A stretch of DNA of 64,000 nt, from assembly GCA_964035545.1 (NCBI GenBank), contig OZ037768.1:1849501-1913500 (forward strand), in the 5' to 3' direction. A program made the translations under genes and the position numbers. The stretch comes from Bugula neritina. Its lineage: Eukaryota; Bryozoa; Gymnolaemata; Cheilostomatida; Bugulidae. This document shows, one piece after another, positions 19,501-53,998 of this stretch (positions within the stretch are counted from its first letter, which is position 1; each line of letters begins with the position of its first letter). The notes below the pieces were generated by a model. It saw nothing but the letters and a program-made list of their open reading frames with translations. It was not told where the DNA came from and ran no database searches.

Positions 19501-22500
19501 TGTTTACAGCTACCTGTATGCGGCTGGCAAAAAGATTTGGCGGACATTGAAGAAGAGGTACTTTGTGTTGGTGCAAGTCTCGCAGTACACGTTCACCGTC
19601 TGCAGTTACCGGGAGAGGAAGACCGAGCCTACGGAGATGCTGCACCTGAAGGGCTTTACTGTTGACTACAGTGAAGCACATCCTGGTAAGTGTGCTACTA
19701 CACCTGTACATCTGGTAAGTGTGCTACTGCATCTGTACATCTGGTAAGTGTGCTACTGCATATGTACATCTGGTAAGTGTGCTGCTGCATATGCATATTT
19801 GGTGAGTGTGCTACTGCATATGCATATTTGGTGAGTGTGCTACTGCATCTTTACATCTGGTAAGTGTGCTACTGCATATGCATATTTGGTGAGTGTGCTA
19901 CTGCATCTGTACATCTGGTAGGTTACTGCACAGCATGTAAAAAACTTTTAGATAATAATAATTTGGAAAATTATATTATATGAAAAAGGCACAATATGGT
20001 TGCTGTTACAGTTACCACAATTAAAGTCATGAGTGTTTCTAGGTGCCAACAGTAATGGGTTAAAAAATCGAACTGATTGCTATTTGGTTTCTAAGAAGAG
20101 CTATAGAGTTCGCTGTAAGATTAGTTAGTATAATAAATAAATAGACATTGCATAGCTTATACCAGCACTTCTTCATACCAATTATAAGGCAAGTGCTTTG
20201 TCAATAGAGTTGAGTGAGTCAAGTCAATATTCAAATGACATATCAACGCCTGCAAGTGTTAACCATAATTCCTTTACATAAAAAGATATAATGGTATGTA
20301 TCTTTTTACACAATTCAATGGGTATACTTCAAGTGTACATTATCCTATGACTTACAATAGCATGCTACAATGTAGTAAGATTATGGATCATAATATCCTA
20401 ATAGTTTCACCACCATTTCCTTGGATTACTGTATAACACCACCACATATAAGGTTTCCTATATGAGATGTTACTCTACTGCATTCATTAAGTCCTTTCCT
20501 CATTATATGAAGAAGTTGCAGGTATATGCATTTGGTGTTATATTATACAGTGAAATGTAGAGGACATGTTATTGCAGACATGGACTGTAATGGGGCTCAG
20601 TATTATTTCAACGCTGTGAAAGAAGGTGACAGCGTGACCTTTGCTACAGACGACATGTACGAGAGGTATAACTGGGTGCAGGCGCTATGCAGAGCTACTG
20701 GGCAGTCCCACAAGCCCACCCCTCCCGTCATCACAACCACGGCTAATGGGGGCAACACCCCTAATCTACCTAACCTGCCCAAAGGTCAAGGAGGTGGGTC
20801 TCTAGGTCAGGCAGGAAGTAGTTTGTGTCTGCTGGCGGCGCTTACCTTGTCTACTTTATAATTAGAGGACAACTCCTGACATGCCGAGTGAATTTTCTTT
20901 TATTTCAATAATTTAATTGCAAATTTGTGCTCGTTGCAATAACTTGCATATGTGGTTCGTAAAAAATTCTTTTAGAATTTACACATTTATTCAAAGCTTG
21001 CTAGGTTAATATTTTTCAAAAATTTATTAACTATTTGATTACTAATTTCATGTTACACAGTTTTCCCCATAAAAATGTTAGCAATAGCAATAAACATGGT
21101 AGTTTTATTATCTGGCTGGAAATTCATTCCTTTTTTCCGTGAAAAAGGAAAAATTGAGACAACCATCATATGAAAGTTATGCATATTTTACTTCCTTATA
21201 CTTTTCAATTGTTTTGAAGTCATGCTAAGTTTGAAACTGCAATATTTGTGTATTTTTATTTCTACTAAACACGTCATACTGATTATTTTAGTGCTATCTC
21301 ATTGTTTACTTGTGTTGTTAATAATATATTCTAGAAATAGTGTGTGTTTTGAGAGAAATGTGGGGTATTAAGTAATAACACCTCTTCAATGTTTTCACTC
21401 TTTACATACACTATGCTGAGTCATACAAGGTCAGGAATGGTTACTGTATGCGTATGCTGGTATTAGATGTGATATACTTTCCAATACTTGCCTCTACTTA
21501 ACCTGTATTAATGCTGGTCTACTTAGTAGCTTCAGTTTGGGAATAACTGGGGTTCTGGTTCAGACTAATGCCCAATAAAGTAAAGAAATTCAGTCAGTCC
21601 GACAACTTTGTGTTGTAATAATTGTGATTCACTGTGAAACTAAGGAGAATTAGAATGGTTGCAGCGATCGATTAGTTTGTGCTCTTCCGATAAGTTAGTA
21701 ACCAGTAAGTCTACATTCTGCTCTCGTGTTTCAGAGATAGACAGGGCGAGGAAACACGGCTTGGATGAGTATGTCTCGGCTGATCCATGTGAGTTTAACC
21801 ACGCCGAGCTGTTCCAGTCTCTGCAGAGCCTCACTCTGGAGTACAGAATGAACGACGCATACACTTGTCTGGTAGGTGCCTGTGGTGTCTGTATATTAGT
21901 GTAGATTAGTATATAGTAGTGTGTGTAGTAGTATGTAGTAGTATATGTAGTATTTATAAGTATATAGTATGTAGGAATATATGGTAGTATATAGTATGTA
22001 GGAATATATGAGTATATAGTATGTAGGAATATATAAGTATATAGTATGTAGGAATATATAAGTATATAGTATATAGGAATATATAAGTTTATATAGTATG
22101 TAGGAATATGTCGTAGTATAAGTGATTTGATTTGCATCATCTCTGCTATTTAGGGCTGGTTTAGTCCCGGCCAGAGCTTCATTCTGGACGAGTACGCTGC
22201 CAGGTACTGTGTGCGGGGCTGCCACCGCTACCTCTCTTACATGTCTGACTTGCTGGACAAGGCCGAGAACGGACTGATGATAGACCCGAATATTATTCAC
22301 TACAGCTTTGCCTTCTGCGCCGCTCACGTCCACGGAAACAAGTAAGACCAGTTATACAACAAGCTACTCTATTGCTTTATTGTAATGTGCACTCGTTTAT
22401 CATTCAGTTAGAATCTTCTCAGATTTGGCCTAATGTCATTGGTGAGACAACTCTCGAGTAGCCATGACAACTGACGGACTAATGTAATATTTACAGCTTG

Positions 22501-25500
22501 TGTAAATTGTTATATTGTTACAATTCAATGTATTTCAGAGCTGACCTTGACTTAGATGCTGATGTCGTCACGTTTTTATGTGACGGCTTAGAGTAAGTCA
22601 TCCCCCCTGAATATATCTGAAGGTGTTACCCCTTTACACTCATAATGAGTAAAATGAGTTAGAGATCAAATTCACTGTAAATGTTGTATTGGGTGTAATA
22701 AATGAACTCTATGTTGTTTCGGGTATGATTCTTTTACCTTCTGATTCAGTGCACAAGTACTCGGCAGCCACCATATTAGAACTTATTCTTTTTTCACGTA
22801 TCTCAAACGCCATGACCACTATGAAATTTTTTTTACCCTGTTATCATATAAAACTATCTAAATACACCACCTGCTCCCCTCCCTCTTTACACTCCTTGGA
22901 TTGTCTAATGCTCAGCGAGAATCCTGATAGTTTTTGTATGGAATTTCAGGCCGGATGGACTCGGCACCATAACTGTGGCAGAAAAGCAGAAGTTTGATGA
23001 AATCAAATCGAGACTGAGAGCTCTACTAGAACATCAAATCACGCATTTTAGGTAACCAAAAAGTGCTTTGTTGTGTAACAAATACCTGGTATATCTGTGT
23101 TTTCATGTAACTTTAATCTTTTCCAAAGTCTCTTAAGTGGAGTTTTTTTATTGAACTTTGTTTTCGTATTTTAGATATTGCTTTCCATTTGGTCGACCAG
23201 ATGGAGCACTCAAGTCAACATTGTCTTTGCTAGAAAAGGTTTGGCATGTTTAATTTTTTTTTGAAGCCATTAACGATAATTAGAGCACATTTACATGTAT
23301 GAGATAAACGCAACTGTATATGTTTACTATGCTGTAAAATTATTGATTAAATTGTTAAGTAGGTGTATTTTTCAATTGTCTCCATTGTTTGTGATAATTT
23401 ACATCTAAACGAAAGTTTGCATATCAGTATTATTTTAATATTTTATATATACAAAGTATCAGATTAACAACAAGCTCATTAGGAATATATACACATTGAG
23501 CAAATATTAATTAAAGTTAAAACACTTCAGTTTACAAAACAATTTGCAAAATGATCAATAATAATTTAGCTGCGATATAGTTAATGTGAATATGATTGGG
23601 TGAACTCTTCCATTTTCAATTGAAATTGTATGCTCTACTCTTTTACTATTCATTTAATTGACTCAGTAATTCATCCGACACATTGACTCATTTCACTAAT
23701 GAACTGCCTGAATAGTCTACGAGTCCCTCAGTTACTCTCTCAGTCACTCTCTTACTCACTCTCTTACTCAGTCATTTTAACTCACTTACTCAGACGCTCT
23801 CAGTCACCCACTCTCTCTCAGTTATTCAATCACTCAGTCACTCACTTGCTCATTAAGTACTTCAGTCATTCTCTCACTCACTCTTTTACTCGGTCACTCT
23901 CAGTCGCTCTCTCACTCACTCTTAATCAGTCACTCTCTCACTCAGTTATCTACTCAATAGTTCCTACTCTCTCTCTCTCTCACTCAGTCAACTCACCCAA
24001 GTACTAAGTTTTATATTTATTCACATCTTTTAGCTCTACATATTAAACTGACAAATCTTCATACCCTAGTCTGTTCATAGTTTGTATTTTCTAATGCGTT
24101 TCTGCTTTATTGGGTTTCTGCCAGACACTGACTGTAGTTCCATAGTTTATTTTGCTAAATTTAGCTATAATTATTGTGCGACCTCTTGATATATGCAGAG
24201 TACTAAAAGGGTAAGCCATTAGTGGCAACTTTCTAATACATCTAATCTTGACTTGTATCTAAAACAAGTAATTATAAAGCTGCACATGTAGCAATTACTT
24301 AATAATTATATGTTTAAATGGCATAATTCCATGTAGTTATATATAACTTCTCTGTTTTAGTTAATATATATGTTATATTAATAACTTCTCGTTCATATCT
24401 CTTTGCGGTTAGGTGCTAATGAAGGAACTGACTTCCAATATGTCTGTAGAGGAAGTTCGTAGCGTTATCACCAAATGTCTCAAAGATGCGGCCCTCGTTA
24501 ATTACACAAGAATTTCAGAGTTTGCCAAGATTGAAGGTATGATGGTGTGTATGTTTCGTGTTGTGGCTACATTAAACACTGTCATGTATTAGTTTTCATC
24601 TTAACATGTAAATATTTCCTGGTTTGATTAGTTACATATAATAATTCCAGCGGTTCAAGCATATGGGTATTTGTATCACGTTTTTGCCTTTTAAGGTAAT
24701 GTGTGATAAGTAATGGCAGGTCAAACTGTCACTTCCCAGTTTTCAAGAAATAATTGAGAAAACAACTCCAAAGTTTAAATATTTTTGCACTTTTAATTTG
24801 ATTAAAGTTGTAATTTAAATACTTGCATTTGAGTTAGTTTAGGAATATTAAACAGAGTAGCAAAGCAAATGTTGAAAATAAATCATAGAAGCTAACTGTC
24901 CTTATTACTTCTCATAGCGAATGTGGATGCGCATGACGAAACAGTGTTTAACATTGAGCAAATGCCGACACTCCAATACTCTCATCTCATATCTCGTAAG
25001 ATAGTCTGTATCATCTGCTTGTAACGGAGCACGTGATTGGTTGAAGTATCTCCCTATAGCAACAGTGTCCTCATCTTGTATATCTAGTTATTTCACTGCA
25101 CGTGTGAACCTTGGGTGGGCTGTATTCTCTGTGGTAGGATTAGTCTGTCTGTTTGTCTACCTGTTCTTGACTTGCACAAAATATAAGTTAGCCTTAGACC
25201 TGGCTGACTCAATATTGGGTGGGTGTCAACCTGCCTCTGTGCCTTCCTTCCAGATCCCAGTCCATCAAGTACTCGTAGTACTGCAGAAAGGCTGGTGAAA
25301 CAGCACTGTGTCCTGTGTTAATTATGTATATATTGTTAGGGAGAAAGCAGTTTGGTTTTGTTTTGTTGGTGTGTCTGCGTAGTGTATTTAGAAAGGTGGA
25401 GGTCTCATACACACTCTGCATGTGTTTGCATACAGTACACTGAAGTTTGTCAGGATTCAACTATTTTATATTCAGTTGTTTTCAATGTTGATGTGCTAGG

Positions 25501-28500
25501 TCTATATCTGAACTCAAACTGTGATACTGTAGTCCCATTTCAATAAAGGTTCATGTGTAGTTTGTTTTTCCTATGCATATTGTGAGTGTTACAATTATTG
25601 ATATATAAGATGTAAATAGTTTGGCTACTTCTCTGATGTTTGTAATAATAAAGTGTGTTGTTGGGTAACAGAGGCAGCGCATAAGGACCCTGCTGACAGA
25701 CTGGAGGATATCATACACTTAGCTGGTCTCTGTATAGAAGTGCTACAGCAGAATGAAGAGCATCACGCAGAGGTCAGTCTAGTGCAGTGTATTATAGTTG
25801 TGTTATAATACTGTATTATAGTTGTATTATAATACTGTATTACAGTATAACACAGTTGTAATACAATAATATAGTACAACTGTATTACAGTAGTATTGTA
25901 TTAATGTGTTGCACTAGTATTACTGTAATATATCCCAATTACTTTTGTTGAAATGGAATTATCTTCCCATTTTTAATTCTAGGAATCTAGTATATACCAA
26001 TAGTAAAGTAGATAGGCAGCTTTTATACATGTTGCCTAGTTTAAGTGTGAAGTGGGTGAAACTTTAGGAGCAAAATTTTGCATTAATTATAGAATTTTAG
26101 TAATTTTTTAATCCAAGTATTTCTACTGTTTCCATTAATATTCTATGAAATATCCAAACTGTTGAACTTCAGGAAATATTGGAAAACATTTTCATGCCTT
26201 CAATTATTATTTTAATCATGTTGCAGCTGTGGTGGGTGCCTAGCATATATATTAATACTATATCTGCATGCTTCTCACACCCAACAGGTTATTTGTATCT
26301 ACAGATATTTACCAACTTTTACCTCTTGCCTGTTTCTAAATTTGTATCGTATATAAAAGATATTTTGTGATTTTTCTCAAGATTTGTAAGAGTCAGGTAA
26401 TATGGCGGTTGTGCACGGTGAAGTTCCACGCTGGATACACTTGTTTTGTATGAGCTGGTTTTGTTTATCTGTCAGCCAATGCCCCGCATGTTGACTTCTA
26501 AACTGTAAAACGTGATATTATAGGCTGCAATTTGAATTGTCGAAGTAAGAATTGACCTTCGAATCAAATTCTCACACATATTAACTTTAAGTTGCTTTCG
26601 AAATGCAGCGTATAATTATAAATGTGAAGGCTTCAGTAGGTGGGGCTGTGTAGATATGCAGAGCGGCTGAACCTTCTGTTATCTTATAGTAAACATATAG
26701 TATGATGTAACAATTCATACTACAGTCTATATAGTATGATGTAACAATTCATACTACAATATGTGTAATGAAGATAATATAGTGCAATGTTAAGCTGTGT
26801 GCAGTGAGGTTAGAATCCTTCAAAAAATCCCCCCCCCTGCCCGCAGAGTCTTAGCAAGCTCACTGCCAATCTTCTTCTACTTAGTTAAGGTGCTAAGGCT
26901 ATTTTCTATTTCACATTGCTGTGTTATAAATGGTACAAGGATTGATGGCTTATTGCAGGCAAAAATGTTTTGATGTACTCATTCTTCCTGTAATCACATA
27001 TTTTCTTATTCGTAGTAATTTTGTTGGTAAATTTTTCATGAAATATACTAAGTTTTGCCACTCTTGTTATAAACCCAGCTTGTTCATGCGTCTCCTTTTT
27101 TATTAGTCTTTATTTATTACTGAGTGCGTGACTTGTTTTACACTAGGAATGCCGAGAGGTAAGTATAGACAAGTCGCACTGCTGTCTCCCTCTACTCATG
27201 CACTACTATTCCAGCCTTCCTATACAAGTATATAGGCTGTAGTTTTGTGTAAAGCAATTTGGGTTGCTGCTTCGTGACCTTGTGTTAACTGAGACTTCTG
27301 TGTCAGCTTACTGGGTGTGCACTCAAATGGTTTGGATTTGATTTGATTGTCACACCTATTTATATTGTCTATTGCACTATGGTTATTCATCATCCAATCA
27401 TTTCAGTAGTTGCTGCACAATGGCTGACCTATAATCTACAACCGCTACAAACAATTTATTCTTGGTTAAAGTTCAATTCTCTCAATTTAAAAATTTTTTG
27501 CACCAAGTATCTATTGTTGAATTGAATTTGCCCTTACACCTGGTGCGTTGGCAATTTTCCTGCAAACTAGTAACTAACCGCCATCCTAATTTGGATAACT
27601 CTAGCAGCTAGCTCATCAAATACATTCTACAACTCTTTCACTTGACTTACTTAGCTGCTTAAGCGAGTTTTACTTAACTGATTGATGTAGGAATAGTTAA
27701 CTTTTACTGCATATTTTCTTTTGTCAACTGTTGCAGATGCACTCTATCTTTTGTTGCAGGCGTTCACATGGTTTGCAGACGTGCTTCTTGAACACAACGA
27801 GATGTTCTGGTCACTCTTCACTGTGGATATGGACGCCTGTCTAGAAACTCAGCACCCGGAGAACTGGGAAATTTTTTCTCTTTTTAGTCTATTGAACAGT
27901 TACCTTTTAACCGACAGTGAGTTTAGCTATTATGGCCGTAGCATGTGTTATACTCGTATGTTTGTTGATACTGCAATAAGAACAAGCACACTCAAAGCAT
28001 GGTAGTTCAAAAATATCTGTTGTTATTAAACATTAGCTAAATAATTTTTGAGTTTGAATATATATTATGTGCTTAAATATGACACAATTTTCTTCATTTT
28101 TCTTGTTTGCTTTTATATTTGTTGATATTACAGAGAACTTGGTTCACGGGGAGTTTCATAAACACTTGAAGGATATATTCGCACCTCAGGTGGTGAGATA
28201 TGTTGACCTCATGCAGTCCTCCATCGCCCAATCTGTTCACAAAGGTGAGCGTCTCTTATACCTTCCAATTCTCTTTCTGTATACACTTGCCTTCCTCTAG
28301 CTCTTGCTTTTTGAAGAGTTGTTATTTTTAGCACCAAAGGGTTGAGATACTATAAATAACTCATAGCAGTCAATGTGAAAATATAAAAAAAAGGTTGAAT
28401 AGTATACAAAAGTTAAAATGAATGTTTTCTTGTTAAACATCAGTTTCTTCACAGCTCACCTTTGGAGACAGATACCTGTATTGTTCAAGTCAATGAGTCG

Positions 28501-31500
28501 ACAGTAGACACTGTCAGTTACTCATTAGACACTGTCAGTCACTCAGTAGACACTGTCAGTCACTCAGTAGACACTGTCAGTCACTCAGTAGACACTGTCA
28601 GTCACTCAGTAGACGCTGTCAGCCACTCAGTAGACACTCTCAGCCACTCAGTAGACACTGTCAGCCACTCAGCAGACCCTCTCAGTCACTCAATTTATTC
28701 TGCAGGATTCACTTCCAAAGAGAAATGGGAGCCGAAGGGCGCTGGCTGTGTCACTTCTGATGATGTGTTGTGGAAGTTAGATGCTCTGCAGACGTTCATT
28801 AAAGAGTTGCAATGGCCGGACGATGTGTTTGCTGAGCACCTGGAAGGCAGACTGAAACTGATGGCCAGTGATATGATGGAGGCCATGGGTAACAGGTGTG
28901 TAAACAATCCACTGTGGCTCCTCTCTAAATACCGTAATTATAGTTATTTTAACTACTTGTGTTGTTCATTTTAAAGTTTTTACTTTAAGCAAGCTCAGAT
29001 CAGTATGAAATGTGGTCGTTGATTCTTTATAGGCTACTTTTGGTCTCTGGTGTGTAAACAATAGTTGTACACTTCCTAAGTTCGTCTTTGCATGTTTTTC
29101 ATGCATTTCATAACATTTCAGGACAATAAGTGCATTTGGAGGTATGTTGAATAGATGTAGTAAAGGTCTTGACTTTGTTGTCCCATCTGAAATCTGTGTG
29201 ATGGTGAACACACTGTCAGACTGCAAGGCTCAGGTAGGTGGCTTTCAACAATATGTTATGGTCTTCGTTTTATATGTAATGGTCTTCGTTTAATATATTA
29301 CGGTCTTTGTTTTATATATTATGGTCTTTGTTTTATATTTTATGGTCTTTGTTTTATATGTTATGGTCTTTGTTTTATATTTTATGGTCTTTGTTTTATA
29401 TGTTATGGTCTTTGTTTTATATGTTATGGTCTTTGTTTTATATGTTATGGTCTTTGTTTTATATGTTATGGTCTTTGTTTTATATTATGTTCTGGTCGTT
29501 GGCACATAGGAGACAGATTTATCTCAAATAATGAAATCTAAATTGTGGTAGTATATAGATTACTTGGTTGCATTTATGTATAAAATAGTCAGATCTAATG
29601 TCTCAGCTTTCAGATGTGTAGTATACTGTAACTAGCAGACGTATAGTATGCTGTAATTAGCAGACGTATAGTATACTGTAACTAGCAGACGTATAGTATA
29701 CTGTAACTTGCAGACGTATAGTATACTGTAACTAGCAGACGTATAGTATACTGTAACTAGCAGACGTATAGTATGTGCAACTAGCAGACGTATAGTATGT
29801 GTACCTTGTAGGCACTGAAGCTGTGCATAATGGCTGGGGAGTCAACGCACCGCTATCACATACACATAGAGGAGTATCTCGAGAGCGCCATCAAACACAT
29901 ACTGGACTCGCTGTTGGAGAGGTTCTTACTTGTCCTTGACATTACGCTGCAGAAACTGAAGAGATATGATGAGGGCTCATTTCTCAAGTCAATACTCACA
30001 CTCACTGTTAGTATCTAGTACTCACTGTTAGTATCTAGTACTCACTGTTAGTATCTAGTACTCACTATTAGTATCTAGTATTCAATGTTAGTATGTAGTA
30101 TTCACTGTTAGTATCTAGTACTCACTGTTAGTATCTAGTACTCACTGTTAGTATCTAGTACTCACTGTTAGTATCTAGTACTCACTGTTAATATCTAGTA
30201 CTCACTGTTAGTATCTAGTACTCACTGTTAGTATCTAGTGCTCACTGTTAGTATCTAGTGCTCACTGTTAGTATCTAGTGCTCACTGTTAGTATCTAGTA
30301 CTCACCGTTAGTATCTAGTACTCACTGTTAGTATCTAGTACTCACTGTTAGTATCTAGTACTCACTGTTAGTATCTAGTACTCACTGTTAGTATCTAGCA
30401 CTCACTGTTAATATCTAGTACTCACTATTAGTATCTAGTATTCAATGTTAGTATGTAGTATTCACTGTTAGTATTTAGTACTCACTGTTAGTATCTAGTA
30501 CTCACTGTTAGTATCTAGTACTCACTGTTAATATTTAGTACTCACTGTTAGTATCTAGTGCTCACTGTTAGTATCTAGTGCTCACTGTTAGTATCTAGTG
30601 CTCACTGTTAGTATCTAGTGCTCACTGTTAGTATCTAGTGCTCACTGTTAGTATCTAGTACTCACTGTTAGTATCTAGTACTCACTGTTAGTATCTAGTA
30701 CTCACTGTTAGTATCTAGTACTCACTGTTAGTATCTAGTACTCACTGTTAGTATCTAGTGCTCACTGTTAGTATCTAGTGCTCACTGTTAGTATCTAGTA
30801 CTCACTGTTAGTATCTAGTACTCACTGTTAGTATCTAGTACTCACTACTCAGTTCATATAATTGTATTAACTTATCCTTGCAACTTAGTAACTTAATTTT
30901 AGAAGCCGACGAATGAACTTGGCCAAGAGTACATTATATTTGTGTTTGGAAATATGGATATGATATGCAACAAGATAACCGATGACGGATATTTTGGTAA
31001 TACTTTACTGGAGGTAAGTAAATGGGCGAATTTCTCTCTTATACAAATACAAGTCTTATCAACTCTCTACACTGAACAGTTTTCACATTATGTTGATAAA
31101 ATTTAGATTTTGAACTGTAGTCTATGGAAAATAGTAAAATATATTATTGAAAAACAAATTTGAATTGAATATTGTTTAATGGGTTTTTTTGGAAATATGC
31201 TTTTATTTATTGTATTTATTGGGCAGTTTGGTTTCTTTTTGAGCCTATTTCTACCGGCCACATGAGTTGATCGTTTGGTGATGGTTTATTAACTTAAGTG
31301 AAGGGGTCTTATGACGTAATATTAAATAAGTAGAACATTTGGTATGTTTTGGAAATGTTGTGTATTGTAGGTGTGGTATGGACAGCAGGTTGATATTATA
31401 CACAAGTGGCTGGCAGAACGAGTGGAGATGACTCTACATCCGTATCAACTTACCTGTCTAATACACATTATCAAGGTAAGGCAACTTCTGAGATCTACTA

Positions 31501-36972: not shown

Positions 36973-37010
<38 letters not shown>

Positions 37011-37032
37011 GTACTAGTATTACTACTACTAG

Positions 37033-37075
<43 letters not shown>

Positions 37076-37076
37076 G

Positions 37077-37126
<50 letters not shown>

Positions 37127-40100: not shown

Positions 40101-40519
40101 TCTATACAAAAGAAGCTCATTCAAAAACCTGAGGCTTGCTGCTTTCAACCAACAAAGTATTTTCTATACTATAAAAGTGAACTTTACAAGGTAGCAAAGC
40201 AAAATACGGAACACAGAAATCAAACTATTATCTAGTATTTCTAGAAGCATTCGTAAAACACTTTCATCAAAGAGTTTATTTCCCAACCCAATTGTTTTCT
40301 TGCTAAGTAGATTTAATAAATGGCCAGCTCTCTAATGATAATATATAAAACAGTGGTAGATGATGGAATATCTTTATTCTGCTTATTACATAATCACTGG
40401 TTACACTCATTGGTTTAGCAGTTGAAGCATTTGCTAGTTTGTCATCTTATGCAATGCATCTATTATATTATATTATATCACATAGTATTATATTGTATTA
40501 TATATATATATATATATAG

Positions 40520-40571
<52 letters not shown>

Positions 40572-43500: not shown

Positions 43501-46244
43501 TCGACAGGCTATTCCTACAGGGTTGATGAGAAGTCTGCATGTGTTAGTGTAAATGTAAAGTGACCATTGGCTACCAGACATATATGGTCAATTAAGATAT
43601 TGTCAATGTGTTGAGTTTACCGCAGGGTTTAGTCAGGGATGGGGGTTCAGGTAATAAAAGTAGCTGACATCACCTGTGTTGTTTTCGTTGCTTGACCTCT
43701 AGCAGGGAATATCTACTGTGTATGTTGATATGCTGAAGGGAATATCTACTGTGTATGTTGATATGCTGAAGGAGAATGAGGAGATGGTGCTACAGCTGAT
43801 CCGGGAAAGTTACGTTCTGGTAGAGTTGAACCCACTTCAGTGGAGCTGGCAGACAATCCAAACAGTTCTCAAAAATCATGTTGCAGTTCTGAAGAGGGTT
43901 GAAGATTTCACCCTGCACAGGTATAGTTTGAGAATTTACCTTTATACAGGTATGTGTTGAGAATTTACTTTTGTACAAGAGTGTTTTGAAAATTTCAGCT
44001 TTGCACAGGTATGTGTTAAAAATTTCACCTTTGCATAGGTATTGTTGATTTTAAATTAAAGATTTATAAAGTATTAGTGTGTTAGCTTGTCACAAATTTC
44101 TTCAGGTATTTGCTGTAATATTGATTAAATAAAGTTTTGGTAGATTGAATAATGTTAAGTTCTTGTCTGACTATTAATATGCCAAAGTGTTACATAATAA
44201 TAGGGTTGCTCTTAGTTTGTTTAGGTGTTGCCACGGTGAGTCGGTTATAACAGGAAGTGTATATTTTGCTGCAGGTTTTTGGCCAAACTGCTGCATTTCT
44301 ACAATCCAAGTGGAGACAATGGCTTCTGTACAATCACGTTATCTGACGACAAGGCCAGACTCTACACCTCTATCGGTCTGCTGCTCATTGAGAAGATAAT
44401 TCTCATCAATGCAGACGAGTCTAACAGGCATCTTAAATCTCTACTACTTGATATCTGTCACTGCCTCTCCGAGGTTTGTCCTTGACATTGTAGACTAGTT
44501 AGTCTCTGATTGGGGAATTGAACTTGAGTTGAAAACCCGCACATTGTATTTGAGCGTAACATTATTTATTTTAAAATTTGGTACAAAAAATACAAAATGT
44601 AGTTTGTCACAAGATTATCGGTGGTAAAGATTTAGTAAGGGCTGTTTTTGGTGCCATTACAGCTTTTGTACACGTTGACCACATGTGTGAGAGCTTAATA
44701 AATTCACATTTTGTAGCCATTGTTCTTGTGAGTGTTTGTTTGGGTTGGCTATGAAGTCTGCCTCAAACCTGTGAGCAACTTGGGTTTGGGGCTTTAAATA
44801 TGGTGCTGGGGCAGTTATAGCCAGATGTGTTCCCTGACGTCCCTCTAGTTCTGCTGGAACTTGATCCCAACCTGTGTCATGCTAAGTCAGTGTCTCTAAA
44901 CACCCACCACTTCTTTCTACGATAGGCTAATGATAATGATTAACTGTTTAGTTACGGCAGGAAGTTCCCGTACAGGAAGCTAAGCTCGGTCTCAACTATA
45001 TTTACACGTACTGCTGTCAGAATTACTTCCTGTTTATTGGCAAGCTGTCGCAGCTGTCAGAGGGACTGCAGCTGTTAGAAGCCACGGGTATAATGCAGCA
45101 GTGAGTTCAACTCTCTATAAATATCATCTGCTAGCTGTGTGTATTTATATGTTGTGAGACAAGTACAGTCTGAGTAACTGTGTTGGATGAGTTCTCAGAC
45201 TAGTTTGGTTGCCTAGGTTACTGGACCTGGTAACTATTACTGGACAAGATGTCTATGTAAAGCTGACCGTGTCGAGTCTGGATTACACTAAAGAAGGGCT
45301 ATGCAGGATTATCCTATCAAAAGCTCTTACAGCTACGTCTGAGGTGCAGTATATAGTATAGAATATACATGTAGTATAGAATATAGTGTAGTGTAGTATA
45401 TCATATAATGTATGACATACTCTAGAGTCTAGCAGTATACTGTGACATTGTAATAATATATTGTGATGCACTATATATATTATAGATCATTGATATACTG
45501 TATTATACAGTGATGCACTGTGTACTAGTATTAGTGCTATGATATGCTACTGTGTACAATAGTACTGTACTATCAGTATGTTAACTTATGACACCCCTTA
45601 TAGAGTGCCCGTCTCTACACCGCCGATTTCATGAGAGCGCTGCTACGACTCGGCGTTCCCTTCTTCAGCAACTGGTGCATGGAGTTACTCATCAAACAGC
45701 TCTATGACCAGAGCAAGAATGTCTCCATGAGATCTCTCAGTGTTATCAACGAGGCTTGTGAGAATCAGGTGTGACCTCGTGTATCTCTATTTGTGTATCT
45801 CTCCCTCCCTCTCCCTCTCTTCCTCTACCCCTCTCCCCCTCCCTCTATCCCTCTCCCTCCCTCTCCCCCTCTCTCTCTCTCTCCCTCCCTCTCTCTCCCT
45901 CTCTCTCTCCCTCTCCCTCCCTCTCTCTCCCTCCCTCTATCTCTCTCCCTCCCTCTCTCTCTCTCCCTCTCCCTCCCTCTCCCTCCCTTTATCCCTCTCC
46001 CTCCCTCTCCCTCCCTTTATCCCTCTCCCTCCCTCTCCCTCCCTTTATCCCTCTCCCTCCCTTTATCCCTCTCCCTCCCTCTCCCTCCCTCTATCCCTCT
46101 CCCTCCCTTTATCCCTCTCCCTCCCTCTCCCCCTCCCTCTATCCCTCTCCCTCCCTTTATCCCTCTCCCTCCCTCTCCCTCCCTCTCTCCCCCTCTCTCT
46201 CCCACTCTCACTCTCTCCCTCCCTCCCTCTCTCTCTCTCTCTCT

Positions 46245-46281
<37 letters not shown>

Positions 46282-49200
46282 TCTCCCTCCCTCCCTCTCT
46301 CTCTCTCTCTCTAAATCTCTCTCTCTAAATCTCTCTCTCTCTAAATCTCTTTCTCAATTTTTCTCTGTATATCTTTTACCTTGTCATAGTGTTGATGTAA
46401 ATTACTAGCTTTAAGGAAACCCAATGCATGCTGTTGAGTTTATTTTGCTTCATGCTGTGTTTAGGCCAACTTGCTTTCACTGATAGCTATCAGACCGTCA
46501 ATCCTTCACCTGGGCGAGATGGGGGCTCTGCTGGTAACCCGATATCTCTCTCTCCAGGAAGGCTACAAGTTCCTTAGTCAATCAAGTTATATTACCAATG
46601 AGCTAGATAGATGGCACGAGGTGGGTTCCGTCACATCACGAAATCTCAGCTGCATTGACAGGCGCTCTTCTACCTACAGAAGTTAACAGAACAGTGTCTG
46701 CACCATGCAGTACAAAGATTTTTTGTTTTCATTTCACTTCTAAAACTATTAAATATTGTATAAGTTTTGCTTTACAACTTTGTGCACTGTCGACTATTAA
46801 ATCTGCTGTTCATTTAGCCCGTGATAAAGTGGCTATAGCATGGTGGGGGTGTAGTAAAAATCACCCCACATTCTTTATGCTTGTGTAGTAAGAAGTCTAC
46901 ACTACTAGGATATTGGTACACTAGTGTAGAGCCGGTAGTACTGTGTAATACATGTCATGTCAAGATACTGTGTGATACATGTCATGTCAGGATACTGTGT
47001 TATACATGTCATGTCATGTCAGGATACTGTGTGATACATGTCATGTCATGTCAGGATACTGTGTAATACATGTCATGTCAGGATACTGTGTGATACATGT
47101 CATGTCATGTCAGGATACTGTGTGATACATGTCATGTCAGGATACTGTGTAATACATGTCATGTCAGGATACTGTGTAATACATGTCATGTCAGGATACT
47201 GTGTAATACATGTCATGTCAGGATACTGTGTGATACATGTCATGTCAGGATACTGTGTGATACATGTCATGTCAGGATACTGTGTAATACATGTCATGTC
47301 AGGATACTGTGTTATACATGTCATGTACACCTCTTTTCTTATTCAGAGTTTCAACCTTCAGTATGCTGATATAGTAGATGAACAGTTAGCCGAAAGCCTC
47401 TCTAGCTACGAGAAAAGCTTCGACGACGAAGTGCAAAGACGAAGTAGTGCAGTCAGGTGTGTATTAGCCAATCACCTTCAAAAGTGTGTGTATTTATCCA
47501 ATTAGGTTTAACTTTACATATTCATCCGCAGTACATATCAAACTTAGTCATTTATAGCATTTTATTTTCAATCAATTTGTGTAAAAATCAAACAGCTTAC
47601 AATTCGACCCTTGTGCTTTTCATGAAAACGTGTGTGTTTCAGTGTTATGTAAGAAGTTGGTTTGAGGTTGTCTCCACATTGAGACGTAAAGATAATAGAC
47701 AATGGTTAGTTACTAGTACTAGTACTAGTTACACGTGGTGCTGTTTTAGACGACTTGGAAAGAGTGTGTACATACCGCCCCATCTCTACGGGCAACTTGT
47801 GCAGCACAGTGAGGGTGCAGAGACAGTAGCAAACCTACCATACTTATCGGAATATTTTGACATCATTAGATGTCATTGCTTTACTAATGAAGACTTAGAC
47901 ATCAAGCGGTGCAAAGCTGCCTTCTGGGTGGCTGTAAGTAATAGCTACTCATATACATGCTAATATTGCCTATTGATAATGATTAGCAAATAGGCGAGGA
48001 AAGTGCATATCACTTCATACCTAAAAACTAAACATCATTTTTAAAAGTCATTTTAATTAATAGTCGGTCTATCTGTTGCTACTTTAAGCTTTCTTCATCT
48101 TTTAATGTAAATGTTCATTGATATCAGTCCTTCTGCAAGATATCTAAGTTGCAGACACTCTGATGTAGTATAATTCTTCAACCAAATTGCGAGAAACCAT
48201 AAGAATTACAGCAATGATTTAGGCATGTAGTTTGCGAGACAATGTAGTTTGGGTTTTTACAAGCTTAGGTGTTGCACGTGTAAGGTTTGGTTCCTCTTCT
48301 AATCATGTGTAGCATTTGCAGTCTGTTGTTATAACACAGAACTGTAGCAACATTCTTAGCTGAGCTATTTCTTTGTGACTATGGTAACTATGTAGCCATG
48401 GCAATTATGTAGCCATGGTAACTATGTAACCATGGTAACTATGTAGCCATGGTAACTAACTATGTAACTGTGGTAATTATGTAGCAGTGGTAACTGTGTA
48501 TTCATAGTAACTATGTAACCGTGGTAACTATGTAATCATGGTAACTGCCTTTCAGGGACACGTCGGCTCTTCAATATACGGTTTAGAGCTGCTGAGTAAA
48601 CAGGAAGTTATCTACTCTTTGATACAGATTGCTCAAAGCAGTCCAGTTCTCACTCTAAGGGGGTAAGTTAATCACAGGCTATACTCCGTGCACCCAGGTC
48701 AGCAGTCTGATTATATAATAGGTGTGTCTTTATGTAATTTGAAGTTCCCAATAGTCAACTGGTGATCTTTTATACAACAGAAACTAAGAGTTGTCTTCTC
48801 TGACTGAATTTTAGTGTTTCTTTTTCCAGTATTCTAGTAAATGTCATTTGTGTAATGCCCAGTTAGCTGTCTACAGCTTGCAAGTTTATTTCTCAACTAT
48901 CATAGATCTCAATAAAGTTCTCATTGTTTATGCAGGGCAGCGTTCTATGCACTCGGTCTGATAGCCACCACTCATGCTGGCGTGAACCGTCTGGCAGAGC
49001 TGGGCTGGAGGTCTGTACTCAGTGCCAGATCAGATGACTGGCCTCTACTCAGTGATCAGCTGCTATACTGTGACCCAGATACTGTGAGAGAAATTAGGTC
49101 AATGTCTCAGACTAGCTCTGTTAGTCATAGTAGTAGCAGTGGCAAGTATGTTGATTATACCTTGTATTATAGTATAGCATGTTGATTATACCTTGTATTA

Positions 49201-52200
49201 TAGTATAGCATGTTGATTATACCTTGCATTATAGTATAGCATGTTGATTATACCTTGTATTATAGTATAGTGTGTTGATTATACCTTGTATTATAGTATA
49301 GCATGTTGATTATACCTTGTATTATAGTATAGCATGTTGATTATACCTTGTATTATAGTATAGCATGTTGATTATACCTTGTATTATAGTATAGCATGTT
49401 GATTATACCTTGTATTATAGTATAGCATGTTGATTATACCTTGTATTATAGTATAGCATGTTGATTATACCTTGTATTATAGTATAGCATGTTGATTATA
49501 CCTTGTATTATAGTATAGCATGTTGGTTATACCTTGTATTATAGTATAGCATGTTGATTATACCTTGTATTATAGTATAGTGTGTTGATTATACTATAAT
49601 AATCATATATTACCAGTATATTACGTAGTATTACACTAACAGCGTATACTATTGATATTATAGTAATATCTAATAATTGCAGCCCATCAGATGCTACTGA
49701 TACAAGCAGCTCTCGCTTTGACCTTGAGGATGGCATGAGGTCACAGACTAGTACTGAAGAAATTCATTTCCCTACGAAACGAGATGACAGAGTTAGTTTT
49801 ACCGACTTTCTAATTATATAGCTGTAGTTTCATCACAAGTTGTGGTTCTAGTCATGCCTTTTCTACCATCTCTAGTGTCTTTACGGGAGATCTATATTCT
49901 CTATATCTACTATAGTCTCTATATCTACTGTTTGCTGTTTTTAGAGCTCGTTTGTTGACGAGATGCTGCCCTCAGTGAAAGCCGGCAAGTCGTATAGTAC
50001 CAGCGAGTTGGCCAAGTCCAAGACGTCCACCACGTATCACCGGCGCACCTCATCCGACTCGTACGGCGCGTGGAACACTGGCAATGTGTCTCCTATAGTC
50101 ATCGAGGTAAGATAACTTCCCTTCTATAGTCATTAAGGTGGAATAGTTTAGATCAGTATTTATTGCTAAAGAGCTAAAAGTATGTTATAGAGTATTATAT
50201 CAGAGTTTACTTGTTTTAGTTACAAAGCAGGAAACAAATTACCATTGCAGGCTTGAAGTCATAGTATTTCCGTTATCTGCTCGAAACATTTTCATAATTT
50301 TAACTTTAGGATTCTGTTGGTCATTATTTTTCCTTAGTAGTTGGATTTGTAATAAGCAAGGGTGTAGTTGTCCATGCCCAGTGTTGTGTGGCAGGTGTTA
50401 GCATGTATATATATAACAGGTATAAAGGTTGACTCAAGTAATAATATTATTAAAATGTTAGCATGTGGTCAGGAATATAAAAGGAAATGTTTTTCTAATC
50501 TCCAGGATGATCATTTCTCCACCAACAACTCAGTGTTAGCTGGTCGAGACACTGGGAACATAGTCAACGGCGCTAGTGATGTTGCTGAGACTATCAGCGC
50601 GGCCTTGACCCAAATTGCATCGCCATCCAAGTCTGCCATCAAACACAAGGCTAGCAAGTCGCTGATCGACATGGGGACAGAGCCTCTCACCACTAAGTCA
50701 AGGTCACTGAGTTGGCGGAGTGATGTGCGGGAGTCAGTAGCGCCCTCTACTGTCACGGTGACTCCCGTCAAGCAGAGTCAGTACACCGAGTCATTCAGCA
50801 GTCAGATCAGCTCTGCTGACTCGGCCATATCCCGCACCTCCATATCACCGATAGACACGGACCGAGCTTCCCTCCCTCGGTACACCATGTCGCTGCCACG
50901 GCAGCGCAAAGGGAAGTCTGTGAAAAAGATGAGATTCTCTAGTCTGCAGAATCCTTCAACTAAATATGATAGTTTGCCAAGAGTGAGTATAACAGGGCAC
51001 TATATTGTCTATATTCTGTAGATGTAGACAGTTGTCTATAATCCGTAGATGTAGACAGTTGTCTATATTCTGTAGATATAGACAGTTGTCTATATTCTGT
51101 AGATATAGACAGTTGTCTATATTCTGTAGATATAGACAGTTGTCTATAATCTGTAGGTGTAGGCAGTTGCCTATAATCTGTAGATGTAGACTGTTGTCTA
51201 TATTCTGTAGATGTAGACAGTTGTCTAAAGATTGTTAACATTTTGCTATAAATGCTACACAAAGTGTATCATAAGATATTAGATGTAGTGTACGTATCAA
51301 CGTGTCAGCAAGCATGTTATGTAGTACGAATATGTCAACAGGGGTATCAACAGGGGGTGTACGTTGATCTATACTATGTGCCAACAGGGGTGTATATTGA
51401 TCTATACTATGTGTCAACAGGGGGTTTACATAGCTCACATGGATGAGTTAGGTCAGGCAGCAGTACGTGCCATGAGAAGACAAGCCTCGAATGTGTCGTC
51501 TACTGACTCCCACTCCGTCTCTTCGCTCAGTAATTCTCCTGCCATTAAAAGTTCTTCCAAATCTAGCAAAGTTATCAGGTGTGTTGGCTTCAAATAACTA
51601 AATAATATGTTGATAAAAACAACTATTACGGTTTTAAATAGTAAAGTTTAGGAATAATTGGTGTGTGAAAAGTGTTTTATTATAACAATCATATTGATTA
51701 TTAAAATTATATAGTGTTATAGTAAAACGTGCAGCTTTATGAGAGTTATTCTCTCGTTTCCCCATGTTGCTGGTATTCCCTTACAGGACGTTAAGTGCTC
51801 AAGGTGATAAAGAGTTTCTATCAGATGTATGCAAATTATCCGATATTGAACAGCCTATGAAATTCTCTGACAGATATATGGGACTAGCCCTGCCATTGGA
51901 TGTTCTGGGTTTGTTTGAGGTTAGTACTCCCAGTACACTCTGTAGTACTCCCAGTACACTCTGTAGTAGTCACAGTACACTCTGTAGTACTCCCAGTACA
52001 CTCTGTAGTAGTCACAGTACACTCTGTAGTACTCCCAGTACACTCTGTAGTAGTCACAGTGCATTCTGTAGTAGTCACAGCACATACTGTAGTAGTCGCA
52101 GTGCATTCTGTAGTAGTCACAGTATATTCTGTAGTACTCACAGTACACTCTGTAGTAGTCCCAGTACACTCTGTAGTACTCACAGTACACTCTGTAGTAG

Positions 52201-53998
52201 TCACAGTACACTCTGTAGTAGTCACAGTACACTCTGTAGTACTCACGGTACACTCTGTAGTAGTCACAGTACACTCTGTAGTAGTCACAGTACACTCTGT
52301 AGTACTCACAGTACACTCTGTAGTAGTCACAGTACACTCTGTAGTACTCCCAGTACACTCTGTAGTACTCACAGTACACTCTGTAGTAGTCACAGTACAC
52401 TCTGTAGTACTCACAGTACACTCTGTAGTAGTCACGGTACATGTTGTAGTACTCACAGTACATGTTGTAGTACTCACAGTACACTCTGTAGTAGTCACAG
52501 TGCATTCTGTAGTAGTCACAGCACATACTGTAGTAGTCACAGTGCATTCTGTAGTAGTCACAGCACATACTGTAGTAGTCGCAGTGCATTCTGTAGTAGT
52601 CGCAGTTCAAATTATAAAGTTCTGCAAAATAATTTCATGGCTACTATAAGACATTCTTCAAGTTAATAATAGATTGAGTTTCAGTAAAGTTGCTGTACCA
52701 TGAGACATAACTCCCTGTTATTATGTCTCTCTCCATCAGCTAATCGGCTCAGCCAATGAGGACGAGGATTTTACTGGGAGTGATGGTGAAGTCGTTAAAA
52801 TGGTGAATGACTTGAAGCCAATTAGCAAAGGGGTTGAGGGGTTGGAGCTTCATTCCACCACTAACTGCCTACGGTGTGTGTCAGCGGAACCCGGCAGCAA
52901 AGAAACCGGCAGCTCTTGGAACCAGAAGTTCGACTCGTCAACATTTATTACTCATAGTGAAGGTATGCCTGTGTGCATCATGTGTGAAGGTATACCTGTG
53001 TGCAGCTTGTGTGAAGGTATACCTGTATGTATCATGTGTGGAGGTATACCTGTATGCATCATGTGTGAAGGTATACCTGTATGCATCATGTGTGAAGGTA
53101 TACCTGTGTGCAGCTTGTGTGAAGGTATACTTGTGTGTATCATGTGTGAAGTTATACCTGTGTGCATCATGTGTGAAGGTATACCTGTATGCATCTTGGT
53201 TTTAGCGGTTCATTGGCTCATAAAGCATCCAATTATCTGGAGGTGTATTTAATATATCTATTTTTTGCAACTGGTTGTTAATGAAGCATTTAATAAAATG
53301 AGGTGTTTTAGTTTTTTATAAGGATAAAATGGTGTGAAAACTGAATGGTAGAAATACAGCCCTCACTCCAATCACATATTCAGACGGTATATGATGATGT
53401 GTACGTTTCAAGTACATATTCTTGTCTTTCTGTAGTGACAGAAAAGCCGCCTGTCAAACAATCGCTTCTAAGGAAAGAATGCATCAAATTCATCACGACC
53501 ATTTGCAGCTCTATCGGTGTGAATGCGGCAGAAGAAGGTTTATTAAGGTGCGTCACCTCACCCCTTCCTCCTTTTCAGTCTCTTAGCCTGTGTTATGCTA
53601 GTAGTTTAGCCTGTGCTACTCACAATCATGGTGTTTGATAGGCTGAAAGAGCAGTTCCCCGACTTATTCAATGATCTCTGTCTCTACTCAGAAGTGTGTG
53701 CCATCCTCTCCAACTACAGCTTCCACCTTCCGGCTCGCAAATTCATCCAGGAACTTTTCCAGGAGACTAAGTTTGACGAGGTGAGACCCGAGTGTAAAAG
53801 TGCCGCCAAATTTATTCCCCAGTTTGTTTGTGTCTCTGAATTACTTATATTTATCCCCTTGTCTTTTCATTGATTTCCTTGTAAATAGTTGCTTATAACG
53901 CTTATGTTTGTTTTCCGCAGATACACTCTGGAGTTATTACCTCTCTGCAGATTGATACTAGCCAATCATGTTGTGATAAACACGGAGTCAGTAGCTAA
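35086..53998 (+). CDS. RICTOR: Rictor, scaffold subunit of mTORC2
   Basis: Rictor is the defining scaffold of mTOR complex 2, which phosphorylates AKT, SGK and PKC. I place 31 exons: 35086-35158, 35683-35730, 38021-38180, 38779-38910, 39177-39367, 39734-39906, 40688-40758, 41163-41428, 42278-42432, 42804-42884, 43045-43145, 43287-43470, 43706-43920, 44275-44473, 44952-45100, 45217-45343, 45604-45768, 46465-46620, 47347-47456, 47750-47933, 48556-48662, 48936-49145, 49683-49791, 49945-50106, 50506-50982, 51421-51578, 51787-51919, 52740-52962, 53436-53547, 53642-53780, 53921-53998. They join in phase to 1615 aa (human 1708). The N-terminal two thirds and the last 200 residues follow human Rictor; the Ser-rich middle is poorly conserved. 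The acceptors of exons 13 and 26 are ambiguous because they are duplicated. Confidence 0.93.
35881..36051 (+). repeat. 18-bp minisatellite, RICTOR intron 2
   Basis: About nine units of TCGTACTCAGGTAGACTC with CAG/GTAGAC steps, starting 150 bp after the exon 2 donor. Confidence 0.92.
36785..37222 (+). repeat. (TAC)n microsatellite, about 440 bp
   Basis: Nearly pure TAC/CTA triplets with a GCTGTTGTTGCTGCTGC island near 37140. Two long frames (poly-Thr and poly-Leu) are open across it; these are artefacts of a triplet repeat lacking stop codons in those frames. Confidence 0.96.
38181..38520 (+). repeat. 25-bp minisatellite with AG/GT steps, RICTOR intron 3
   Basis: About 13 units around GTACAGGTACATGTGTACT, beginning 10 bp after the exon 3 donor (TGTG/GTGAGTTTGCAG/GTACAT). 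Most units contain CAG/GTACAT, a 3' site fused to a 5' site. Later units carry CTCAGAGTGTGTT variants. Confidence 0.94.
40456..40680 (+). repeat. (AT)n and ATTATATCGTAT repeat, RICTOR intron 6
   Basis: Nearly pure AT dinucleotides from about 40497 to 40568, flanked by imperfect ATTATATCGTATAGT units, running up to the TTCTAG acceptor of exon 7. Confidence 0.93.
41421..41983 (+). repeat. 23-bp donor-containing minisatellite, RICTOR intron 8
   Basis: About 24 almost identical units of TAGCTGTGGTAAGTAACTCT plus ATA. The exon 8 end is CAGCTGTG and its donor GTGAGTAACTCTATA, so the array starts with the last 8 coding bases. Downstream copies carry GTAAGT, closer to consensus than the real GTGAGT. 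Confidence 0.97.
43165..43265 (+). repeat. CTATATACCTGC imperfect repeat, RICTOR intron 11
   Basis: Short imperfect units of about 11 bp (TATACCTGCTA, TATACCTCCTA) filling a 141-bp intron from about 25 bp after its donor. Confidence 0.85.
43706..43771 (+). repeat. RICTOR: Exact 33-bp tandem duplication in RICTOR exon 13
   Basis: GGAATATCTACTGTGTATGT plus 13 bp is repeated twice, encoding GISTVYVDMLK twice in frame. Both copies are preceded by AG (AGCAG, then CTGAAG), so the second start could also serve as an acceptor. Confidence 0.93.
43906..44042 (+). repeat. About 30-bp donor-containing minisatellite, RICTOR intron 13
   Basis: Four further imperfect copies of the exon 13 end and donor. 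GT sites lie at 43921 (real), 43950, 43981, 44009 and 44039, preceded by CTGCACAG, TTATACAG, TGTACAAGA, TTGCACAG and TTGCATAG, each followed by GTATGTGTTGARAATTT-like sequence. Confidence 0.9.
45790..46350 (+). repeat. CT-rich polypyrimidine tract, RICTOR intron 17
   Basis: About 560 bp that is almost pure C/T on the plus strand, with CTCCCTCC, CTCTCTCT and CCTTTATCCC blocks, starting about 20 bp after the exon 17 donor. Long Ser/Pro/Leu frames here are artefacts. Confidence 0.96.
46945..47330 (+). repeat. 27/32-bp minisatellite, RICTOR intron 18
   Basis: About 14 units of CATGTCAGGATACTGTGTAA plus TACATGT; a few carry an extra CATGT, giving 32 bp. It ends about 16 bp before the exon 19 acceptor. 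Confidence 0.95.
48375..48548 (+). repeat. GGTAACTATGTA repeat, RICTOR intron 20
   Basis: Imperfect units of about 15-18 bp (ATGTAGCCATGGTAACT) ending 8 bp before the exon 21 acceptor. CCATGG is palindromic. Confidence 0.9.
49146..49597 (+). repeat. 31-bp minisatellite from the RICTOR exon 22 donor
   Basis: About 14.5 units of ATGTTGATTATACCTTGTAT plus TATAGTATAGC. It starts exactly at the donor: exon GGCAA then GTATGTTGATTATACC. In the copies the donor is changed to GCATGT or GTGTGT. Confidence 0.95.
51010..51228 (+). repeat. 27-bp hairpin-forming minisatellite, RICTOR intron 25
   Basis: About eight units, each with GTCTATAT, TCTGTAG, ATATAGAC: an 8-bp perfect stem and 7-nt loop in the best copies. 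It starts about 25 bp after the exon 25 donor. Confidence 0.94.
51323..51420 (+). repeat. 33/34-bp acceptor-containing repeat before RICTOR exon 26
   Basis: AG acceptors at 51341, 51353, 51387 and 51420, each in CAACAG/GGG context. The last two intervals are 34 and 33 bp and hold GTGTATATTGATCTATACTA. The last AG is the chosen acceptor. Confidence 0.88.
51920..52612 (+). repeat. 21-bp minisatellite, RICTOR intron 27
   Basis: About 33 units of AGTACTCACAGTACACTCTG plus T, beginning 4 bp after the exon 27 donor (GAG/GTTAGTACTCCC). No stop codon occurs in several frames on both strands. The exon 27 frame continues through the whole array to a stop at 52664-52666. Confidence 0.96.
52740..53998 (+). 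other. RICTOR: RICTOR exons 28-31: conserved C-terminus
   Basis: Encodes about residues 1433-1615. NCLRCVSAEPG, LLRKECIKFITTICSS, LKEQFPDLFNDLCLYSEVC and FHLPARKFIQELFQE align with the last ~170 residues of human Rictor. In exon 28 a CLRC pair and a nearby His recall the zinc-binding C-terminal part proposed for human Rictor (inference). Confidence 0.88.
52954..53200 (+). repeat. 27-bp donor-containing minisatellite, RICTOR intron 28
   Basis: Nine units of GTATACCTGTGTGCATCATG plus TGTGAAG. GT donors lie at 52963 (real), 52990, 53017, 53044, 53071, 53098, 53125 and 53179; the copy at 53152 has lost its GT. The period is a multiple of 3 and the exon frame stays open (GIPVCIMCE per unit). Confidence 0.95.

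Follow-up and report, generated by a model that had tools for sequence, protein, structure and literature searches.

The window analysed here is a stretch of 64,000 nucleotides from the bryozoan Bugula neritina (C4:1849501-1913500), and the genome searched is an assembly of 215.8 Mb in 295 contigs. Two well-known genes lie on the forward strand of the window. The curated part of CAPS (calcium-dependent secretion activator; 16833..32224, +) has 20 exons and that of RICTOR (35086..53998, +) has 31. The CAPS protein contains PH and MUN domains and the RICTOR protein RICTOR_N, RICTOR_M, RasGEF_N_2 and RICTOR_V domains. Both can be aligned to human chains (CAPS1 is chain 7vs3), and their reading frames are open through all 49 introns. 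Among the 120 matches listed for CAPS the best is from the bryozoan Watersipora subatra (66% identity), and the next with full coverage reaches 57%. Six further CAPS exons are predicted upstream of the curated part, from 9479. Our curated exons 2 and 16 are exons 8 and 22 of the first-pass annotation of this DNA, a numbering that we keep. A third gene at 2592-8400 is predicted and was named MOGS by eye.

Predicted exons come from a simple exon finder trained only on the curated CAPS and RICTOR exons. Tested on the genes it was trained on, its confident predictions match 36 of 51 curated exons exactly, and 8 of the 44 confident predictions in the CAPS/RICTOR span mismatch the curated exons. Two self-trained finders were discarded: one trained on long open reading frames reached 2,651 exons, and with the second the number of curated exons recovered fell from 42 to 37 of 51.

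At five exons of these genes the exon end and its 5' splice site are repeated in tandem downstream. Tandem arrays were called with TRF, which gives 105 rows in the window. CAPS exon 8 (19510..19685, +), an open coding sequence within the PH domain, ends CATCCTG/GTAAGT (the slash marks the junction) and runs into a 29-bp array of 8.3 copies that repeats the donor (19678..19920, +). CAPS exon 22 (29812..30006, +) ends CTCACT/GTTAGT and is followed by 42.3 copies of a 20-bp unit (30000..30846, +). For RICTOR exon 8 (41163..41428, +; AGCTGTG/GTGAGT) the array has 24.8 copies of 23 bp (41417..41986, +), and for RICTOR exon 28 (52740..52962, +; GTGAAG/GTATGC) it has 8.9 copies of 27 bp (52957..53195, +). 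RICTOR exon 13 (43706..43920, +) has a weak donor, CTGCACAG/GTATAG, and an array of 5.2 copies of 29 bp (43898..44048, +). By the TRF edges the exonic part inside the array measures 8 nt at CAPS 8, 7 at CAPS 22, 12 at RICTOR 8, 23 at RICTOR 13 and 6 at RICTOR 28. An ungapped comparison of suffixes gives 3 nt for CAPS 8, 7 for CAPS 22, 17 for RICTOR 8 and 6 for RICTOR 28, and gave no result for RICTOR 13. Since the repeats lie downstream, the exon and the genuine donor are intact and the extra copies are all intronic.

The first-pass annotation had reported these five arrays, and TRF together with the exon ends bears out their positions, approximate periods and copy numbers. It had also described a mirror form with a repeated acceptor at RICTOR exon 26 (51421-51578, +; acceptor CAACAG/GGGG). 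This array is present, though small: 2.5 copies of 33 bp (51348..51431, +) repeat the acceptor and 11 exonic nt. The decayed array that it saw at MOGS exon 5 (4705-4805, predicted) did not hold up, as neither the TRF list nor inspection of the sequence gives an array after that donor. Two further RICTOR arrays begin 2 nt into the intron, one after exon 22 (48936-49145, +; array 49148..49594, +, 31 bp, 14.4 copies) and one after exon 27 (51787-51919, +; array 51922..52606, +, 21 bp, 32.6 copies). The units had been called unrelated, which stands for 17 of the 21 pairs among seven units, whereas four pairs resemble each other at an uncorrected P of 0.01-0.04 in a shuffle test. An introner or dispersed repeat family should have homologous units in different introns, and these comparisons do not place the arrays in such a family.

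Two other repeats in these genes deserve mention. RICTOR exon 13 opens, directly after its acceptor, with a 33-bp in-frame tandem duplication (43704-43777) that encodes GISTVYVDMLK twice; what was duplicated could be coding sequence or the acceptor. In a CAPS intron, 829 nt from the donor, lies a 34-bp array of 47 copies (17802-19406), the unit of which contains a donor-like GTGAGT and a branch-point-like TACTAAC.

Many array copies carry a splice signal that looks usable. The number of later GT sites in the intron that outscore the genuine donor or fall at most 1 bit below it is 4 for CAPS 8, 35 for CAPS 22, 23 for RICTOR 8 and 5 for RICTOR 13 (at least two of the last five are located past the array), and zero for the introns after RICTOR exons 28, 22 and 27. 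At RICTOR 13 the genuine donor scores 4.4 bits and two copies score 10.6 bits; some array copies there read CAG/GTATGT. The proteins allow four of the junctions to be checked (CAPS 8, CAPS 22, RICTOR 8 and RICTOR 13), RICTOR 28 lying outside the printed alignment. At CAPS 8 the alignment to human CAPS1 is continuous, with a two-residue gap a few residues downstream that no 29-bp unit could produce. The RICTOR 8 junction (EALYSC/DPCAP) is free of gaps against human RICTOR. No unit-sized insertion appears at CAPS 8, RICTOR 8 or RICTOR 13, the three array introns covered by the printed alignments to the human chains. At CAPS 22 the junction LTLT/KPT corresponds by eye to LSLTKPT in Watersipora protein P0001. 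Because the proteins align with those of relatives through the junctions, the exon-proximal donor is presumably the copy in use at all four.

The use of a later donor would have different consequences at different arrays. The period leaves a remainder of 2 when divided by 3, and hence shifts the frame, in four of the five arrays. At RICTOR 28 the four 27-bp units translated contain no stop in the frame of the exon (GMPVCIMCE or GIPVCIMCE-like), so that later donors would add blocks of nine residues.

We compared array positions with splice junctions in a block of 263 kb, the window plus 200 kb of surrounding sequence, which holds 120 arrays, 206 donors and 211 acceptors (predicted and curated). 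A junction was counted as anchored if an array edge fell between -40 and +2, and arrays were shuffled through the non-coding parts of gene spans. Anchored donors number 12 of 206 against 2.3-2.5 expected, a value never matched in 2,000 plus 400 shuffles. CAPS and RICTOR contribute 7 of 49 donors against 0.5-0.6 expected, but these genes were picked after the fact. In the held-out genes, that is, outside CAPS and RICTOR, 5 of 157 donors are anchored against 1.8-1.9 expected (P 0.028-0.043). The held-out count is 4 against 1.1 expected with stricter exons (P 0.026) and 5 against 1.3 with arrays of at least 100 bp (P 0.011). When at least 5 exonic nt are demanded, 8 cases are found overall against 1.6 expected, and 3 against 1.2 in the held-out genes (P 0.12). 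Acceptors show no excess over the shuffles of this block (2 of 211 anchored, 2.4 expected). The difference between donors and acceptors (12/206 vs 2/211) has a binomial P of 0.013, and in the held-out genes (5 vs 1) a P of 0.22. Slightly deeper in the intron, 3-20 nt from the junction, edges are distributed symmetrically (12 at donors, 13 at acceptors).

The held-out anchored cases, named by eye, are a paired-like homeobox gene, a ligand-gated channel, a TBC1D2-like gene, a zinc-finger gene (the exon end of which is uncertain) and a low-complexity protein. In the homeobox gene a 30-bp donor-anchored array lies within the homeobox (C4, window-relative -67761 to -67311). The gene finder read this array partly as coding (REVSSKHDAY-like), and later donors might therefore insert blocks of ten residues into the homeodomain.

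Besides shuffling through gene spans we used a gentler null, in which each array is placed randomly within its own intron and may cross the junction by up to 20 nt. Under this null six arrays cross a donor against 3.2 expected (P 0.09): the curated genes have 5 against 1.4 expected (P 0.01), and the held-out genes show no excess (1 against 1.8). Nearness is clearer. Of 48 introns with a single array, 28 have an edge at most 20 nt from a junction against 17.7 expected (P 0.0002); of 28 held-out ones, 15 do against 10.4 (P 0.023). Array edges no closer to junctions than random positions would have counted against the first-pass annotation by its own account; in the 263 kb they are closer. The held-out nearness is split evenly between donors and acceptors (8/28 each, 5.5-5.6 expected each, P 0.15 each), which leaves a donor-specific effect unsupported in these genes under this null. 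Within 5 nt of a donor, 2 held-out edges show no excess over the 3.3 expected. Edges within 5 nt of an acceptor are rare (1 of 48 against 5.6 expected, P 0.015; held-out 1 against 3.3, P 0.12). The junction effect is firm for nearness and modest for crossing.

The arrays themselves make up 18% of the sequence in the 153 introns of the block. The median amount of non-array sequence is 234 nt in array-bearing introns and 360 nt in array-free introns (P 0.014). In 12 of the 153 introns non-array sequence falls below 100 nt, and 10 of these 12 bear arrays. A donor score of at least 7 bits is found in the units of 7 of 54 intronic arrays against 4.2 in shuffles (P 0.075), and in 4 of 44 when those lying no more than 5 nt from a donor are left out (P 0.27). 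For acceptors, 4 of 54 reach at least 7 bits against 1.3 in shuffles, and at 5 bits or more there are 9 in sense and 8 in antisense against 4.8. Acceptor-like sequence is hence present in units, and a strict filter against acceptors is our reading of the data, not a demonstrated fact.

The same anatomy recurs on chromosome C1, where we sampled tandem GGTAAGT and AGGTAAGT among the matches listed and took the left flanks of 24 of 26 arrays. An exon was called at an acceptor-plus-content score of at least 10, with donor strength excluded. A predicted coding exon ends near the edge in 11 of the 24 (7/13 for GGTAAGT, 4/11 for AGGTAAGT). With other words on C1 an exon is found at the edge in 4/7 arrays for GTGAGT, 3/8 for GTAAGT without the G and 3/14 for the control TATGGT (one of these three control arrays, L051, contains GTGAGT). 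The exon call succeeds at 43 of 49 curated donors and at 1 of 150 non-coding GTRAGT sites. At array edges in the 263 kb outside CAPS and RICTOR it gives 26 of 176, against which 11 of 24 is an increase (P 0.0009). All donor words together (18/39) differ less clearly from TATGGT (3/14, P 0.094). Selection by a donor word raises the rate under any model, and the result on C1 should therefore be read as recurrence, not enrichment. In four of the 11 cases (L032, L035, L036, L040) the first GTAAGT is precisely where the predicted exon stops. The remaining seven exons stop at another GT at most 15 nt from the edge, and at the GTAAGT when donor strength is counted; hence their exact ends are uncertain.

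Ten exon peptides from C1 were given to a Pfam search, of which five matched and five did not. The matches are a caspase (L036), a phosphofructokinase (L078, under the curated cut-off and in a frame that differs from that of the top-scoring exon), two OATPs (L047 and L041, the latter with a score of 7.9 and outside the 11) and a kinase at a GTGAGT array (L073). Over the two chromosomes, donor-anchored minisatellites are seen in at least a dozen genes. Other contigs hold five distinct places similar to the RICTOR 8 array (L002-L008). None of these five arrays crosses a donor, the one in L002 beginning 31 nt past it, and an adjacent 31-bp array in L006 begins at a predicted donor. The number of exonic nt common to a later copy (at 80% identity) was obtained in 26 of 29 cases, with no result for L048, L075 and RICTOR 13. 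It ranges from 0-1 to 29-30, with 0-1 in L036, L040 and L045 and 17-29 in L035, L047, L077, L079 and L031. Such a range would fit a first copy that is held constant while the others diverge from it.

One could argue that donor-like arrays arise from splice junctions in general, and raw word counts seemed decisive at first (24,099 tandem GTAAGT matches against 682 for the reversed word). We dropped this argument. Arrays abound in GTA and AGT, so that the reversed word makes a poor control. Against the composition-matched words TATGGT (3,195) and TGGTAT (4,398) GTAAGT is still 5.5-7.5 times commoner, but other counts weaken the argument. A G precedes tandem GTAAGT in 2,516 of the 24,099 matches (10.4%), just as predicted from the composition of those arrays that lie away from donors (10.5-10.7%), and GTAAGT outside arrays and donors has a G in 13%. 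AG precedes it in 1,682 (7.0%) against 4.8-6.7% predicted. With exonic G and AG barely enriched, a small part at most of the GTAAGT arrays looks donor-derived, and a splice-junction origin of donor-like arrays generally is unsupported. The contrast for tandem GTGAGT is weak (20,982 against 12,407 for its reverse), and tandem TTTCAG (93,366 matches genome-wide) is swamped by one satellite. For these reasons raw counts were not taken as proof. Outside the large satellite TTTCAG arrays are rare: over the first 14.69 Mb of C1 six matches are listed, at four places, against 13 GGTAAGT arrays among the matches listed for the first 4.58 Mb. The satellite extends, among the matches listed, over C1:14695200-14704615; its 20-bp unit has the form TTTCAGTATGTTGCAGTATA, and it is perhaps centromeric.

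Similar structures have been described elsewhere. In amphioxus, minisatellite-like repeats across the exon-intron boundary, often repeating AG/GT, are called mirages. They are said to leave regular splicing undisturbed and are described in the globin genes Gb6 and Gb9 and in Adh3, with repeats in PGBD5 likened to them (PMC3087553, PMC3902484). The five arrays of the window span the boundary in the same way, with 6-23 exonic nt per unit, and four of them (CAPS 8, CAPS 22, RICTOR 8, RICTOR 13) carry many usable-looking splice signals. Amphioxus units are given as 10-72 bp in Adh3 and 150-160 bp in the globins, whereas ours measure about 15-53 bp. Mirages are described at both boundaries in a few genes, whereas the arrays here involve at least a dozen genes and lie for the most part at donors: in the 263 kb, 12 donors and 2 acceptors are anchored, the latter not above chance.

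The human CBS gene has a 31-bp VNTR, c.1444_1467+7(16_21), at the boundary of exon 13 and intron 13 (PMC2630376, PMC5188458). By its notation the unit consists of the last 24 exonic and the first 7 intronic bases, repeated 16-21 times, which is the same anatomy. There, however, a single locus is polymorphic, and it is reported to affect the activity of the enzyme, whereas in B. neritina the anatomy recurs within one genome. A tandem duplication over an intron-exon boundary has also created a new intron (PMC4974935); that was a single duplication, while here expanded arrays lie within introns. The intronic VNTR of ABCA7 affects splicing according to the title of the report, and the likeness, judged by that title, is that of an intronic VNTR (PMC5954066). 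The donor-anchored arrays are best read as having the anatomy of the amphioxus mirages and the CBS VNTR in another phylum. In the literature searched, mostly papers outside subscription, we found no description of donor-anchored minisatellites in bryozoans.

What could produce such arrays? We think, with a probability of roughly 0.6, that they arose in the way minisatellites ordinarily do, were tolerated at donors because the copy next to the exon still works, and are filtered at acceptors. Minisatellites would be born everywhere and purged from coding sequence. A tandem duplication of some 15-55 bp would by chance span a donor, as it would elsewhere in a repeat-rich genome, and slippage or unequal exchange would then enlarge the array. 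If the exon-proximal donor stays in use, array growth would be nearly neutral. Coding constraint would hold the first copy while the intronic copies drift and homogenise, so that of about 30 exonic nt no more than a few might still be recognised. The same duplication at an acceptor would put new AGs and polypyrimidine tracts upstream and would mostly be removed by selection. Tolerance and removal at acceptors would together account for the contrast between donors and acceptors, for units that break the frame and for the shortened exonic stretch. The high frequency of arrays (120 in 263 kb) and the lack of significant enrichment of donor-like motifs in units speak for tolerance, which was the first candidate of the first-pass annotation and the one that fits best. 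The rarity of TTTCAG arrays and the protein alignments without unit-sized insertions point the same way. Pure tolerance, however, predicts crossing at the background rate, but anchored donors are about 5 times as frequent as in shuffles overall and 2.8 times in the held-out genes. The own-intron null removes most of that excess. The RICTOR 13 copies that far outscore the genuine donor also weigh against this account. Candidates for the excess are a birth bias at junctions and a preference of arrays for introns with little other sequence.

A birth bias could be strong enough to be the main cause. Donors would then be hotspots where transcription, the binding of U1 or R-loops promote breakage or slippage near the exon end. 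The excess of anchored donors over shuffles (12/206 vs 2.3), the nearness of edges to junctions, which persists in the held-out genes, and the smaller amount of non-array sequence in array-bearing introns all point in this direction. Yet most GTAAGT arrays are not donor-like, their preceding G following composition; intron-side edges lie as near to acceptors as to donors, unlike what a donor-specific cause would produce; and the held-out numbers are small. It is therefore rather unlikely, in our judgment, that minisatellites in this lineage arise preferentially at junctions, donors in particular, with a few percent of donors carrying expandable donor arrays. If they did, the arrays would provide a standing reservoir of alternative donors, of intron lengthening and of in-frame protein additions, for which RICTOR exon 28 and the paired-like homeobox gene would be examples. 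Donor-anchored arrays exceed shuffles and recur on another chromosome; a symmetrical process at splice junctions is unsupported, as acceptor crossing shows no excess.

It is also possible that nothing happens at junctions at all and that we are looking at a repeat-rich genome through a window chosen after the fact. The window is indeed a local outlier. Tandem GGTAAGT has 30 matches in the 263 kb where the genome average would give 3.1, and these form three arrays, all donor-anchored; the first-pass annotation had thus hit a local cluster. Moreover, crossing within the own intron is not significant overall and shows no held-out excess, and 3 of 14 control-word arrays start at a predicted exon, though L051 carries GTGAGT. 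On the other hand, held-out donors exceed shuffles (P 0.03-0.04), edge proximity is significant overall and in the held-out genes, and on C1 donor-word arrays meet predicted exons more often than array edges in the 263 kb do, an argument that loses force as choosing donor words favours it under any model. Altogether we consider the absence of any junction effect unlikely. Still less credible is intron gain, in which exonic AG/GT tandem duplication made new introns and the array is their interior (the Rogers and amphioxus globin models). Some introns are nearly all array, as the 12 with less than 100 nt of other sequence suggest, and the RICTOR 13 unit has an acceptor-like and a donor-like half (TTTGCACAG/GTATGT). 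However, the seven donor-anchored introns of the window have 56-657 nt of other sequence and an acceptor past the array, which makes such an origin very improbable.

Under the reading that we prefer, tolerance at donors with filtering at acceptors, the arrays are still of general interest. Junction-spanning tandem duplication is one proposed route to new introns, new donors and longer introns, and the published cases that we found concern single genes or a handful. Here a search for a motif is enough to find the arrays, on two chromosomes and also in well-known genes, so that birth bias, tolerance and donor choice could be measured. Natural constructs such as CAPS 22, in which as many as 35 donors of nearly equal strength follow one another, would directly test how the spliceosome chooses the exon-proximal one.

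A last observation concerns the assembly. On small contigs (e.g., C188:3952-4716, C64:2494-3273 and C166:13490-14260) many of the matches to protein kinases contain several TAA and TAG codons and few TGA, whereas most of those listed on the large contigs C1-C8 have no stops. These small contigs probably derive from a co-assembled ciliate in which TAA and TAG are reassigned.
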